From Mesobacillus persicus (GTDB lineage: Bacteria; Bacillota; Bacilli; Bacillales; Cytobacillaceae), in assembly GCF_900109925.1 (NCBI RefSeq), contig NZ_FOBW01000014.1, positions 62,001-126,000 of the forward strand: a stretch of DNA of 64,000 bases, given 5' to 3'. The position numbers and the translations under genes were made by a program. The notes under the pieces are model-generated. The model searched no databases. It saw only the letters and a list, made by a program, of their open reading frames with translations, and was not told the DNA's origin. Every line of letters starts with the position of its first letter. Within the stretch, counting starts at the first letter, position 1. Positions 6,580 through 58,731 of the stretch are shown piece after piece.

Positions 6580-6820
6580 GTGTTATACGGGGTTATTGAT
6601 TTCCGCTCCAGGCACTTCGCGCACCTTAGGGCAGTCCGGGAGCCTCCTCGTCACTACCGCTCCTGCGGGGTCTCCCTTGGCCTTGCACTCCCGCAGGACA
6701 TTGAATGGCTTCCTCGAATATGCCCACGCACGAGAAAATGTGCAGTTCATTTTCGAGGAGTCTTCGTGCCTTCCGCTCCAATCAACCTGGTCAAAATCAA
6801 CATAGTCCTTTAACACAGCC
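6580..6820. repeat. GC-rich hairpin element, copy 1 (subfamily A, long form)
   Basis: This is the first of 11 copies of one dispersed element. The core (about 6594-6786) starts with TTGATTTCCGCTCCAGGCAC and ends with GTGCCTTCCGCTCCAATCAA, so its ends are inverted repeats. Outer arms GTGTTATAC and TTTAACACAGCC extend the pairing. The centre carries CTTGG/CCGGGAG/GGGGTCTCCC-type stems. This copy contains the optional internal module of about 65 bp, which has its own TCCTCGAA/TTCGAGGA palindrome. It lies between the PBP and spoIIQ genes. No gene of its own is supported. Confidence 0.85.
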
Positions 6821-6821
6821 A

Positions 6822-6855
6822 AAAAGAAAAACCCGCCAGTTAGCATGACGGGTTT
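6822..6855 (-). terminator. Terminator after spoIIQ
   Basis: The minus strand reads AAACCCGTCA, loop, TGGCGGGTTTTTC. It lies about 30 bp after the spoIIQ stop. Confidence 0.85.
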
Positions 6856-6883
6856 CCTGTCCATTTTAAAATCTATTTACAAA

Positions 6884-7834
6884 TCAAGAGTTGCTAGATG
6901 GTGTTGCGTTATCTTCAGTTGGGCCATCCTCTGGTGTTGAAGTTTCTTCATCAGACCCAGTTCCTTCTTCTGTTGAAGTTTCTTCGTCAGATCCAGTTCC
7001 TTCTTCTGTAGAAGTTCCTTCGCCGGACTCAGTTCCTTCTTCAGTTGAAGTTCCTTCGTCAGATTCAGTGGCATCCGTTGATGGGTTTTCATCAGCGTCT
7101 GCACCAGTACCAGTTTCAGCTTTACCAGCATCGCCTTCAGAGTCCATTTCTGCCTCTTGAAGCGCGCTTAGTGGCTTATCAAAGTAATCTAATGGGTTCA
7201 CTGGAGTTCCGTCTTTACGAATCTCAAAGTGTACATGGACGCCTGATTGCTCGTTAAACTGGCTTGTACCAGCTGTTGCAATCGCATCACCTTGCTTGAC
7301 CATGTCGCCCGCTTTTACTTTCATATTTTTAATTGATTGATACTGTGTTACAATTCCATTGTCGTGTTCGATTTCGATTACGTTACCTAGCAGTGAGTCT
7401 TCCTTAACCGTTGTTACTTCCCCGCTTAACGATGCGATGACATCAAATTCCTTGCCATCTTTTGCTGCGATGTCGAGTCCTGTGCTCGGATGGTATTGGT
7501 TATTGTAAACAACTAGTGCAGCTTCTTGTTCGGCTTTATCACTTTCGTTGTCATAAAACTGCATTTTCACAACAGAGTTTTCGACATCTTCCATTGGCAT
7601 AACGAATTTCTCCAACGAGCTATTTACTTCAACTGCTGGCTCGTCATTGAACTGCTTGCTTGGATTGTCGGTTGCCTGATCAAGTTGATCTGTACCTTGT
7701 TCACCGCCACCTTGGAACCAAAGAACACCTGTTAGTATGATTGCGGCACTTCCTAAATACACTGCTGGGTAAACCCACCGCTTCTTGAAAAAGCGTTTAA
7801 AGCTCTTTTCTTGAGAAGATTTTTCCTCTCTCAT
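6884..7834 (-). CDS. spoIIQ: Stage II sporulation protein Q (degenerate LytM/M23 domain)
   Basis: SpoIIQ is made in the forespore, where it spans the inner membrane and pairs with mother-cell SpoIIIAH to form the engulfment channel. I start at the ATG at 7834 (MREEK), 6 bases after GAGGTG; known SpoIIQ proteins also start MREEE. One membrane helix (residues 21-40) is followed by a LytM domain (about 105-215). The first zinc ligand position holds Ser117 (STGLD) instead of His, while H200-V-H202 is kept; this matches the inactive SpoIIQ type. The C-terminal 85 residues are an acidic repeat of about 12 residues (EEGTGSDEETST-like), which is unusual. At 316 residues it is somewhat longer than B. 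subtilis SpoIIQ. Confidence 0.93.
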   Translation of the reverse strand: MREEKSSQEKSFKRFFKKRWVYPAVYLGSAAIILTGVLWFQGGGEQGTDQLDQATDNPSKQFNDEPAVEVNSSLEKFVMPMEDVENSVVKMQFYDNESDKAEQEAALVVYNNQYHPSTGLDIAAKDGKEFDVIASLSGEVTTVKEDSLLGNVIEIEHDNGIVTQYQSIKNMKVKAGDMVKQGDAIATAGTSQFNEQSGVHVHFEIRKDGTPVNPLDYFDKPLSALQEAEMDSEGDAGKAETGTGADADENPSTDATESDEGTSTEEGTESGEGTSTEEGTGSDEETSTEEGTGSDEETSTPEDGPTEDNATPSSNS

Positions 7835-7910
7835 TTTCATCACCTCAGCAATCATTCTGAACAGATGCGAAAAAATATATACATAGAGTTGAAAAAAATT
7901 TTAAATGCTT

Positions 7911-7939
7911 ATTTTTCGACAAACTTCTCAGTATTATAC
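7911..7939 (-). promoter_or_regulatory. Candidate sigma-F promoter of spoIIQ
   Basis: On the minus strand GTATA (7935-7939) is followed after 14 bp by GTCGAAAAAT (7911-7920), close to the sigma-F pattern GYATA / GGnnAnAnT. It lies about 80-105 bp upstream of the spoIIQ start, and spoIIQ is known to be sigma-F dependent in B. subtilis. Confidence 0.55.
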
Positions 7940-7962
7940 ATTTTATTTTTTTGGAGGTTTTT

Positions 7963-56550: not shown

Positions 56551-56569
56551 CCCCCGTTAAAGGAGTAAG

Positions 56570-56601
56570 CAAAAACAACCCCATCCTAAGATGGAGTTGT
56601 C
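56570..56601 (-). terminator. Terminator after pyrG
   Basis: The minus strand reads ACAACTCCATC, TTA, GGATGGGGTTGTTTTTG, about 10 bp after the stop. Confidence 0.9.
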
Positions 56602-56611
56602 AGGTAAGTAA

Positions 56612-58213
56612 TTATTTTTTATTCTTCAACGATGCTTCCACAAAGTCTCTGAATAATGGTTGTGGACGAGTTGGTCTTGACTTGAATTCTGGGTGGAATT
56701 GACAAGCGACGAACCATGGGTGATCTTGAATTTCAACAATTTCAACTAGGCGGCCATCTGGGCTTGTCCCAGAGAAGATGAACCCGACCTCTTCTAATTG
56801 CTGACGATATTCGTTATTGAACTCGTAACGATGACGATGACGCTCATAAACAACTGTTTCGCCGTATGCTTGTGCCGCTTTTGAACCTTCAATTAACTTA
56901 CAAGGATAAAGGCCAAGACGCAAAGTTCCACCAAGGTCTTCGATATCCTTTTGTTCTGGTAAAAGATCGATAATTGGATATGGAGTTTCTGGCTTGATTT
57001 CAGCAGAATGTGCTCCCTCAAGCTTCACTACGTTTTGAGCAAACTCAACAGTCGCTAACTGCATGCCAAGACAGATTCCGAAGAACGGTACCTTTTGTTC
57101 ACGCGCATATTGGGTTGCAAATAACTTCCCATCAATACCGCGATCTCCAAATCCACCAGGAACAAGAATTCCATCGGCATCTTTCAGCAATTCAGCAACA
57201 TTTTCACCTGTTACTTCTTCTGAATTGACCCATTTAATATCAATGTCACTATCAAACGCATATCCGGCATGACGTAGGGATTCGACAACGGAAATATAAG
57301 CATCTTGAAGCTCAACGTATTTACCTACAAGAGCAATTTTCGTTGTTTTCTTTAAGTTTTGAACCTTATCAACAAGCTCTTTCCACTCGGTCATATCCGC
57401 ATCTGTGCACTGTAATTGCAAGTGATTGCAGACAATTTGGTCAAGATGTTGACTCTGTAGGTCAAGCGGAATGCTGTACAATGTTTCCGCATCCTGACAT
57501 TCAATGACCGCTTCTTTTTCAATATCACAGAACAAGGCAATTTTATCTTTCATATCTTGTGAAATTGGCATTTCTGTACGTAGAACGATCGCATTTGGTT
57601 GGATCCCAAGGCTGCGAAGTTCTTTTACACTATGCTGTGTTGGCTTTGTTTTTAACTCGCCAGCAGCTTTAATATAAGGAACAAGTGTACAGTGTATGTA
57701 CATTACATTGCGGTTGCCGATGTCACTTTTAATCTGACGGATGGCCTCAAGAAATGGCAGTGATTCGATATCCCCAACCGTTCCACCAATTTCGGTAATA
57801 ACAACATCTGCATTGGTTTCTTTCCCCGCACGAAATACCTTGTCTTTGATTTCGTTTGTAATATGTGGAATAACCTGAACCGTTCCTCCTAGATAGTCGC
57901 CTCGACGTTCCTTTTTAAGAACTGTTGAGTACACCTTTCCAGTTGTCACGTTTGAGTACTTATTTAAGTTGATATCAATAAAACGCTCATAGTGTCCAAG
58001 GTCTAGATCCGTTTCAGCGCCGTCATCGGTTACGAAAACTTCACCGTGCTGGTATGGGCTCATCGTCCCTGGGTCAACATTGATGTACGGGTCAAACTTT
58101 TGAATCGTTACTTTTAATCCTCTGTTTTTTAATAAGCGGCCAAGGGAAGCTGCTGTAATCCCTTTTCCAAGTGACGAGACAACGCCGCCGGTTACGAAAA
58201 TATACTTTGTCAT
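56612..58213 (-). CDS. pyrG: CTP synthase
   Basis: PyrG aminates UTP to CTP using glutamine. The 533-residue protein has the synthase P-loop region [17 protein letters not shown] at the N-terminus and a class I glutamine amidotransferase domain with the nucleophile in FGICLGMQ (about residue 380) and the His-Glu pair in FHPEFKSRP. The ATG at 58213 follows AGAGGGGG. A hairpin sits just upstream of the ribosome binding site. Confidence 0.97.
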
Positions 58214-58227
58214 GATGGTCCCCCTCT

Positions 58228-58255
58228 TTTCCAACTAGTTTGTGCTAGTTGGAAA
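58228..58255 (-). promoter_or_regulatory. Hairpin at the pyrG ribosome binding site
   Basis: CTAGTTGGAAA and TTTCCAACTAG form an 11-bp perfect stem ending 5 bp before the GGGGG of the pyrG ribosome binding site. Further small stems lie upstream (GCGGACA/TGTCCGC at 58355-58372; AGTGGTG/CACCACT near 58303-58327). In B. subtilis pyrG is controlled in its leader by attenuation; here no terminator-like T run follows this stem. Confidence 0.5.
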
Positions 58256-58456
58256 CTTTTCATTGATTTTAAAAACATTTCGTACGATAGTGTTCAACTT
58301 CCATCAGTGGTGAGTTCTTCCACCACTAATCTTGATTGAACGGGTTGGGTCTTTGCGGACACAGTTTGTCCGCTAACTCTTCGTAAAAAAGAGAAACGCC
58401 TCGTTTAAAAGGCGGTATGAGTGCAGAAAAATTCTTATCCCATTAATTTTTTTATA

Positions 58457-58731
58457 GGCTGTGTTAAACGTTGTTGATTTCCACTACAGGCACTTCGCTT
58501 TCCGCGGGCAGTCCGGGAGCCTCCTCGTCGCTTTGCTCCTGTGGGGTTAATTGGTCCCTCATACGGACCAATTCAACCTAGGTCTCCCTTGGCCTTGCAC
58601 TCCCGCAGGACACTGAATGGCTTCCTCGAATATGCCCACGCACGAGAAAATGTGCAGTTCATTTTCGAGGAGTCTTCGTGCCTTCCGTTCCAATCAACGG
58701 TATGTAAACTCAACCTTTTCCTTTAACACCG
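58457..58731. repeat. GC-rich hairpin element, copy 11 (subfamily A, long form, with nested insert)
   Basis: Outer arms GGCTGTGTTAAAC and TTTAACACCG; core 58473-58698. The internal module is present. The GGGGTCTCCC centre is split by a 35-bp insert at 58547-58581, which is itself a palindrome (AATTGGTCC/GGACCAATT). Confidence 0.85.

Follow-up and report, generated by a model that had tools for sequence, protein, structure and literature searches.

Introduction

Transposons of the IS1595 family (NF033547, PF12762) and the miniature inverted-repeat transposable elements (MITEs) derived from them share their terminal repeats and their 8-bp target site duplications (TSDs) with a repeat that occurs eleven times in 64,000 nucleotides of Mesobacillus persicus DNA (contig NZ_FOBW01000014.1, positions 62,001 to 126,000 of the forward strand; hereafter the window, numbered from its first letter). 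Unlike IS1595 transposons, the window element has no transposase and carries a conserved folding core, which was not seen in L246, an IS1595 element with its own transposase gene. Mobile insertion cassettes (MICs) of the IS231 type also have transposon ends without a transposase. The present family resembles MICs in this respect, and some of its members carry passenger genes (L091, L092, L216); it differs in its transposase family and in that no window copy was seen to hold a gene, in agreement with an initial annotation of the window according to which no copy encodes a transposase. REP/REPIN sequences are comparable as extragenic palindromes present in many copies, but the window element ends in terminal repeats, makes target duplications, and probably has a DDE transposase as its partner rather than a RAYT, no search for a Y1 transposase having been made.

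The abbreviation MIC appears in the available excerpt of PMC6542083, which also describes the bcr1-bcr18 repeats of the B. cereus group as 100-400 bp long, with bcr1 mobile-like and in many copies, and ties bcr mobility to TTTAT repeats; compared with that excerpt, the element studied here has 8-bp TSDs and GGCTSTGTTAAA ends. Bhal-1, presented in the available portion of PMC2267715 as a 74-bp stem-loop family with 36 copies in B. halodurans, is likewise a structured repeat from the same bacterial order and, likened by description alone, may be the same element. Judged mostly from titles, literature searches on Bacillus MITEs, IS1595, bcr1, REP and other repeats showed no description of the element, and by title none of the matches to literal end and core strings was on this subject.

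Here, we find that the copies are non-autonomous mini-transposons of the MITE kind. We consider it likely that they were moved in trans as IS1595-type MITEs and that the folding of the reverse-strand RNA of their core is under selection. The MITE kind and its ordinary movement are known; what is new is a shared, apparently strand-selected folding module. The initial annotation had read the repeat as either a mobilised palindrome or a structured RNA kept by selection on folding, and our results support this reading, the mobility half strongly and as far as a likely transposase family.

Element structure and evidence of mobility

From the outside inward, the element consists of the 8-bp duplication, the terminal repeat GGCTSTGTTAAA, a short spacer, GTTGATT, TTCCGCTCC and a GC-rich core of nested stems; its right half continues with a second, direct TTCCGCTCC, AATCAAC, a longer spacer repeating AAATCAACA, and the terminal repeat TTTAACASAGCC. 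The facing ends described initially are real for TTGATT/AATCAA, GGCAC/GTGCC and the outer GGCTSTGTTAAA, whereas TTCCGCTCC at both core borders is a direct repeat. Ten of the 11 window copies hold the GC-rich module between direct TTCCGCTCC repeats. Core-less forms (48367, L042, L055, L059) keep one TTCCGCTCC-like stretch. Subfamilies A and B, distinguished from the outset, are joined by a third core type (approximately GGGGCGKGCGSTRAG; the copy at 56358 and others), and a division into long and short cores cuts across all three; long forms have one extra hairpin of about 60 nt towards the 3' side of the core. In the copy at 47318, L002 and L008, the core either includes a second repeat family (GCGCTTCCGCTTTTC / CTAGCTCCAGCGCCTAGCCCCTCG) or forms a mosaic with it. 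This second GC-rich family (CTAGCTCCAGCGCCTAGCCCCTCG...GCGCTTCCGCTTTTC) also occurs in some orthologous gaps of congeners.

The MITE character follows from terminal inverted repeats (TIRs), short length, the lack of a transposase gene, a TSD fixed at 8 bp, and presence or absence between relatives. Element ends were chosen by the terminal repeat alone before the flanking 8-mers were compared. No more than one mismatch separated the two 8-mers in 8 of 26 elements of the own genome (drawn from the window and loci L001-L060). The same was true of 19 of 21 elements retrieved from relatives through a conserved end pattern and of 19 of 33 in named genomes. Shuffled pairings averaged 0.8, 1.4 and 1.0, respectively, and none of 2000 shuffles reached the observed counts; when one side was slid by 1-3 bases, only 0 to 2 matching pairs remained. 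Exact 8-bp duplications are common in the relatives.

Six congeners keep the gene order and are 80-83% identical in the locating gene, and four of the 11 window sites were compared with them at base level. The element is absent from all five comparable congeners at sites 50466 and 51622 and from all six at 48367, where other repeats occupy two of them. Five of the six also lack it at 58457 (one of these with another repeat), and the sixth, G003, retains a core-less remnant. At another place, two congeners share one element copy (L265, L267). The presence/absence comparison proposed in the initial annotation therefore found elements missing at the inspected congener sites, with 8-bp target duplications as further evidence.

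Copies in the window and their density

All 11 places listed in the initial annotation were recovered by sequence inspection and repeat-family listing. Trained on 53 diverse cores, four of them from the window, a covariance model finds the ten core-bearing copies at E <= 1e-14 each (the weakest at 6588-6728), and three further rows in the window are weaker opposite-strand echoes of the same copies. These ten carry the GC-rich folding core; the copy at 48367 is core-less, with outer arms only in its 73 bp. Position 56358 was correct, but the copy there lies on the minus strand. The copies are as follows.

6576..6820, plus strand: copy 1, MITE long form; both terminal repeats, 245 bp, flanking 8-mers with 3 mismatches; core 6596-6785 (anchors, model)
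13712..13838, plus strand: copy 2, short core, subfamily B (anchors, model); outer arms decayed, right arm end near 13875 by eye
20734..20860, plus strand: copy 3, short core, subfamily A (anchors, model); between two genes of what we take, from gene lengths and order, to be a complex I operon
37362..37550, plus strand: copy 4, long core, subfamily A (anchors, model); outer ends decayed
41820..42063, plus strand: copy 5 (L010), long core, subfamily B; both terminal repeats, flanking 8-mers with 2 mismatches; core 41840-42027
47318..47577, plus strand: copy 6, long core, chimeric with the second repeat family; core 47338-47540; right end decayed, its position approximate
48367..48439, plus strand: copy 7, core-less mini form, 73 bp; flanking 8-mers ATTTTATT / ATTTTTTT
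50467..50593, plus strand: copy 8 (the same copy as locus L254), short core, subfamily B (anchors, model)
51622..51789, plus strand: copy 9, short core, subfamily B; terminal repeats by eye; core 51643-51769
56360..56547, minus strand: copy 10, long core, third core type (anchors, model); between convergent genes
58457..58733, plus strand: copy 11, long core; terminal repeats, flanking 8-mers with 6 mismatches; core 58474-58697
58547..58580, plus strand: extra small hairpin within the core of copy 11 (sequence)

The density of about one copy per 6 kb noted at the outset is true of the window only. Across the 4.64-Mb genome, the model finds 115 core matches at E <= 0.001, about one per 40 kb, a count that may be low, as 150 of 646 first-look candidates were scored. 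About 1.6 cores would be expected per 64 kb, and the ten present therefore mark the window as a local cluster. GGCTSTGTTAAA occurs 44 times in the genome, against once for its reversed control. Placement between genes, stated initially for all copies, holds in the window (open reading frame list, main genes picked by hand), but 3 of 73 own-genome elements lie inside an open frame according to mechanical gene calls.

Folding of the core and strand preference

The four window copies that were folded gave z-scores of -4.3 to -7.1, and the core-less copy at 48367-48439 folds by itself. Standard pairs make up 93.5% of the paired cells in the 53 cores, and 23 of 34 pairs are doubly changed against a shuffled mean of 7.4, with none of 500 shuffles reaching 23; the covariation that the initial annotation asked for is thus present, well beyond controls. 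When pairing partners were slid, standard pairs fell to 38-51% and doubly changed pairs to 5-14.

The mispairs are asymmetric. In 154 distinct cores, A.C occurs 141 times and G.U 59 times; A.C outnumbers G.U in 63 cores, the reverse is true of 8, and 83 are equal. Counted by pair, A.C is commoner in 20, G.U in 7, and 6 are equal. Because an A.C mispair here corresponds to G.U on the opposite strand, the mispairs favour folding of the reverse-strand RNA. Paired columns are biased (G>A 2.7% versus C>T 1.4%; T>C 3.2% versus A>G 0.5%), whereas no such bias is apparent in conserved columns that are unpaired (G>A 4.2%, C>T 4.0%). Predicted folds are more stable for the reverse strand in 135 of 154 cores, by 4.0 kcal/mol on average, compared with 37 of 60 shuffled sequences and 0.5 kcal/mol.

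Gene orientation points the same way. Between tandem genes, the reverse strand is co-read in 34 of 44 own-genome cases (p 0.0004) and 34 of 49 named-genome cases (p 0.009), counts that rest on mechanical gene calls with 40 of 116 named-genome elements unplaceable; among window copies between tandem genes, this was so in all five that a script could place. In convergent or divergent settings (n=21), 11 cores were on the lagging and 10 on the leading strand, indicating no replication-strand bias, although this comparison is weak because gene strand nearly coincides with leading strand in tandem settings. Together, mispairs and gene orientation suggest that folding of the reverse-strand RNA is favoured. 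The structured-RNA half of the initial reading has thus gained strand-biased mispairs, orientation and reverse-strand stability, all of them indirect, but no Rfam family matches the element.

Occurrence of the core in other transposons

Flanks were surveyed for 157 cores, 41 from the own genome and 116 from others (one of which, L254, is the window copy at 50466), with loci L061-L096 left out. GGCTSTGTTAAA ends were recognisable on both sides of 20 of the 41 own and 40 of the 116 other cores, on one side of 13 and 15, and on neither side of 8 and 61, respectively. Clustering by flanks grouped 26 cores with GGCTSTGTTAAA ends, left 92 singletons, and yielded a cluster of six with GGCTGTTTTCG ends and one of twelve whose flanks match an IS1182 element. 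GGCTGTTTTCG ends with exact 8-bp TSDs also define a second subgroup of autonomous IS1595 elements (L248, L249 and L251, three of six loci examined, and L315), and a core-bearing MITE with ends of this set, L109, has an exact TSD. Among 12 first-scan loci compared with IS1182, most of them in the IS1182 flank cluster, six continue into the transposase gene, and the others match end parts only.

Autonomous IS1182 elements hold the core within L268, L269 and L270, and L271 is without it. Two plasmids of Peribacillus sp. R9-11 carry IS1182 copies that are 98.7% identical over 1764 bp in different surroundings, with the core between the left end and the transposase start; a related IS1182 in Cytobacillus firmus has no core. 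The core is therefore a separable module, found also in MITEs with other IS1595-type ends and in autonomous IS1182. Some of the cores in IS1182 or between the second type of TIR may stem from nested insertion of a MITE whose ends have since decayed. As a separate observation, the IS1182 copy at L268 has a 24-bp palindrome, AACAGACATAGGTATATGTCTGTT, on both flanks, as if terminator-like hairpins were its target.

Cores are about as similar to those of other contexts as to those of their own (identity 0.86-0.93, with gaps ignored and loose end patterns used to label contexts). A sample of 299 genomes and 117 genera of the order contained a 13-base core marker in 197 of the genomes and 84 of the genera, at up to about 200 per genome, while its reversed control was nearly always zero and at most 5. 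Two Neobacillus-rich flank groups, of seven and five cores, look orthologous rather than newly inserted and were left out of the counts. An automatic TIR and TSD finder succeeded for 2 of 69 cores without GGCTSTGTTAAA ends and for 2 of 203 random pairings, and its calls are therefore weak alone; L109 has independent support from its family. L136, with GGTTCTTCACCA ends, is a single case whose ends have no plasmid match.

Candidate transposase

The matching ends and TSD length indicate that an IS1595-type transposase probably moved the window copies. On a Pontibacillus plasmid, L246 carries an IS1595 transposase gene and two further genes between perfect ends, with the TSD attcgaaa on both sides, and interrupts an apparent glutamine synthetase gene. 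L304, in genome G396, is 1902 bp long, with perfect TIRs, the TSD ttctttta on both sides and a 349-aa open frame. A third locus, L245/L305 (G380), is IS1595 according to both Pfam and NCBIfam and has matching ends and a one-mismatch TSD, its gene being in two frames; L312, which also has these ends, holds a truncated gene and an exact TSD. Among the six congeners, one has a broken IS1595 match above the cut-off and another a small broken piece.

Three cassettes share these ends and have exact duplications yet lack a transposase: L091 (4001-4470, 470 bp) on a Clostridia plasmid of Alkaliphilus, L092 (4001-4787, 787 bp, with an acetyltransferase gene) in Aneurinibacillus, and L216 (444 bp) in G396, which thus holds both a cassette and the autonomous L304. 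These three cassettes point to a wider cassette family. Five plasmid right-end matches were scanned for a partner end: L091 and L092 have both ends, L094 has a distant weak partner, and L093 and L096 have none. A phage collection contained no match to the element. Two other transposase families were considered as helpers and rejected: no ISL3 transposase was found in the own genome, and IS6/IS240 was likewise absent there, with 30 IS6-type loci of relatives showing no convincing pair of these ends.

Discussion

According to the explanation that we favour, an IS1595-type transposase would have acted in trans on the copies and inserted them into mostly AT-rich intergenic sites. Loss of the core across the direct TTCCGCTCC repeats, presumably by slippage over the hairpin, would yield core-less copies, a product seen in several places. 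The reverse-strand RNA of the module would be co-read with neighbouring genes in most tandem settings, with its folding under selection, and a compact, translation-free hairpin plausibly makes an insertion tolerable or stabilises the flanking mRNA. Several findings weigh against this account. Among the four window copies with both ends recognised, TSD mismatches number 1, 2, 3 and 6, with only the copy at 48367 at one or fewer, so most window copies look old; a base-precise empty site was not demonstrable at the four inspected sites because the intergenic DNA is too diverged. Two positions of the central stem are mispaired in about one fifth of cores, and in the stem at columns 36-45/108-117 the mispair asymmetry is reversed. 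A third set of 12 loci gave an orientation count of 8:4, which is not significant, and the strand statistics treat related copies as independent. In IS1182, it is the forward strand of the core, not the reverse, that is co-read with the transposase gene. As for the helper, the own genome has no match to PF12762 or NF033547, i.e., no IS1595 transposase was detected there; 16 element-bearing relatives gave matches above the cut-off in two (G380, G396), sub-threshold and mostly broken ones in five, and none in nine. A PF12762 search of element-bearing relatives matched 1 of 15, and a first end scan of eight IS1595 loci found matching ends only in L245 and L246. Four relatives (G114, G034, G410, G311) have fresh duplications yet no IS1595 match; the helper is therefore missing where movement looks recent; it may have been lost or missed in draft assemblies, or it may be another enzyme.

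These four relatives are also what speaks for a non-IS1595 transposase that accepts the same ends as the mover, a possibility that we consider improbable given the perfect ends and exact 8-bp duplications of two autonomous IS1595 elements (L246, L304); no other family with these ends was seen among the ISL3, IS6/IS240 and IS1595 models searched. Movement of REP/REPIN-like repeats by a hairpin-recognising RAYT-type (Y1 HUH) transposase would fit the high copy number, intergenic palindromes and orientation bias, but it is scarcely credible for an element with 8-bp duplications at terminal inverted repeats and DDE transposons sharing its ends; to our knowledge, REP-type insertion makes no such target duplications. 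The core could instead be mobile in its own right, inserting into MITEs and IS1182 with a 9-bp TTCCGCTCC duplication, as its several contexts and the single TTCCGCTCC-like stretch of core-less copies might imply. Deletion across direct repeats yields the same product, however, and in G003 a shared site holds a remnant without the core. Moreover, in the MITEs seen the core occupies the same internal place with the same repeat and thus not a random target; cores bounded by varied target duplications were not noticed, no systematic search for them having been made. Such an origin appears very unlikely.

The remaining alternatives accept the MITE and concern the role of its core. A transcription terminator or insulator, shielding transposons from outside transcription and hosts from read-through, would suit a strong GC-rich hairpin, intergenic placement and the position between left end and transposase gene in IS1182. 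Yet in the copies inspected by eye, neither strand has a run of U after the hairpin (terminators were not scanned for), and copy 3 lies in the favoured orientation inside the apparent complex I operon, where termination should be harmful; we regard this role as unlikely. A stronger contender, and a real possibility even if we lean the other way, is a plain MITE with no RNA role, in which the core is neutral filler that spread recently by horizontal transfer and covaries through hairpin-templated correction at replication. DNA palindromes can be corrected arm to arm, changes mostly replace one Watson-Crick pair by another, G.U intermediates being few (G.U in 0.9% of cells), and cores resemble each other to about the same degree whichever genome or context they come from. 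Such correction treats both strands alike, however, whereas mispairs and orientation are strand-biased, and the unpaired columns are free of strand bias.

IS1595-type movement in trans combined with selection on reverse-strand folding thus remains our preferred explanation. A broader version of it, offered tentatively and rather doubtful at present, would make the core a portable folding-RNA module, carried like cargo across many genera of the order by transposons of two or more DDE families (IS1182, and IS1595 with either type of ends). It would persist because its reverse-strand RNA shields the host transcript or conceals the insertion, with unrelated transposons profiting independently. If the strand evidence holds, this would be a non-coding module that makes transposons tolerable and is exchanged among unrelated ones, which would also account for a very common intergenic repeat of the order that lacks an Rfam match.

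Other repeats in the window

Two further kinds of repeats were observed in the window. Direct repeats with 114-bp spacing occupy 23645-24427, within a 476-aa open frame of the complex I-like operon, and short tandem arrays with 53-bp and 52-bp units lie at 4230-4431 and 25603-25810, respectively, apparently outside the main genes.

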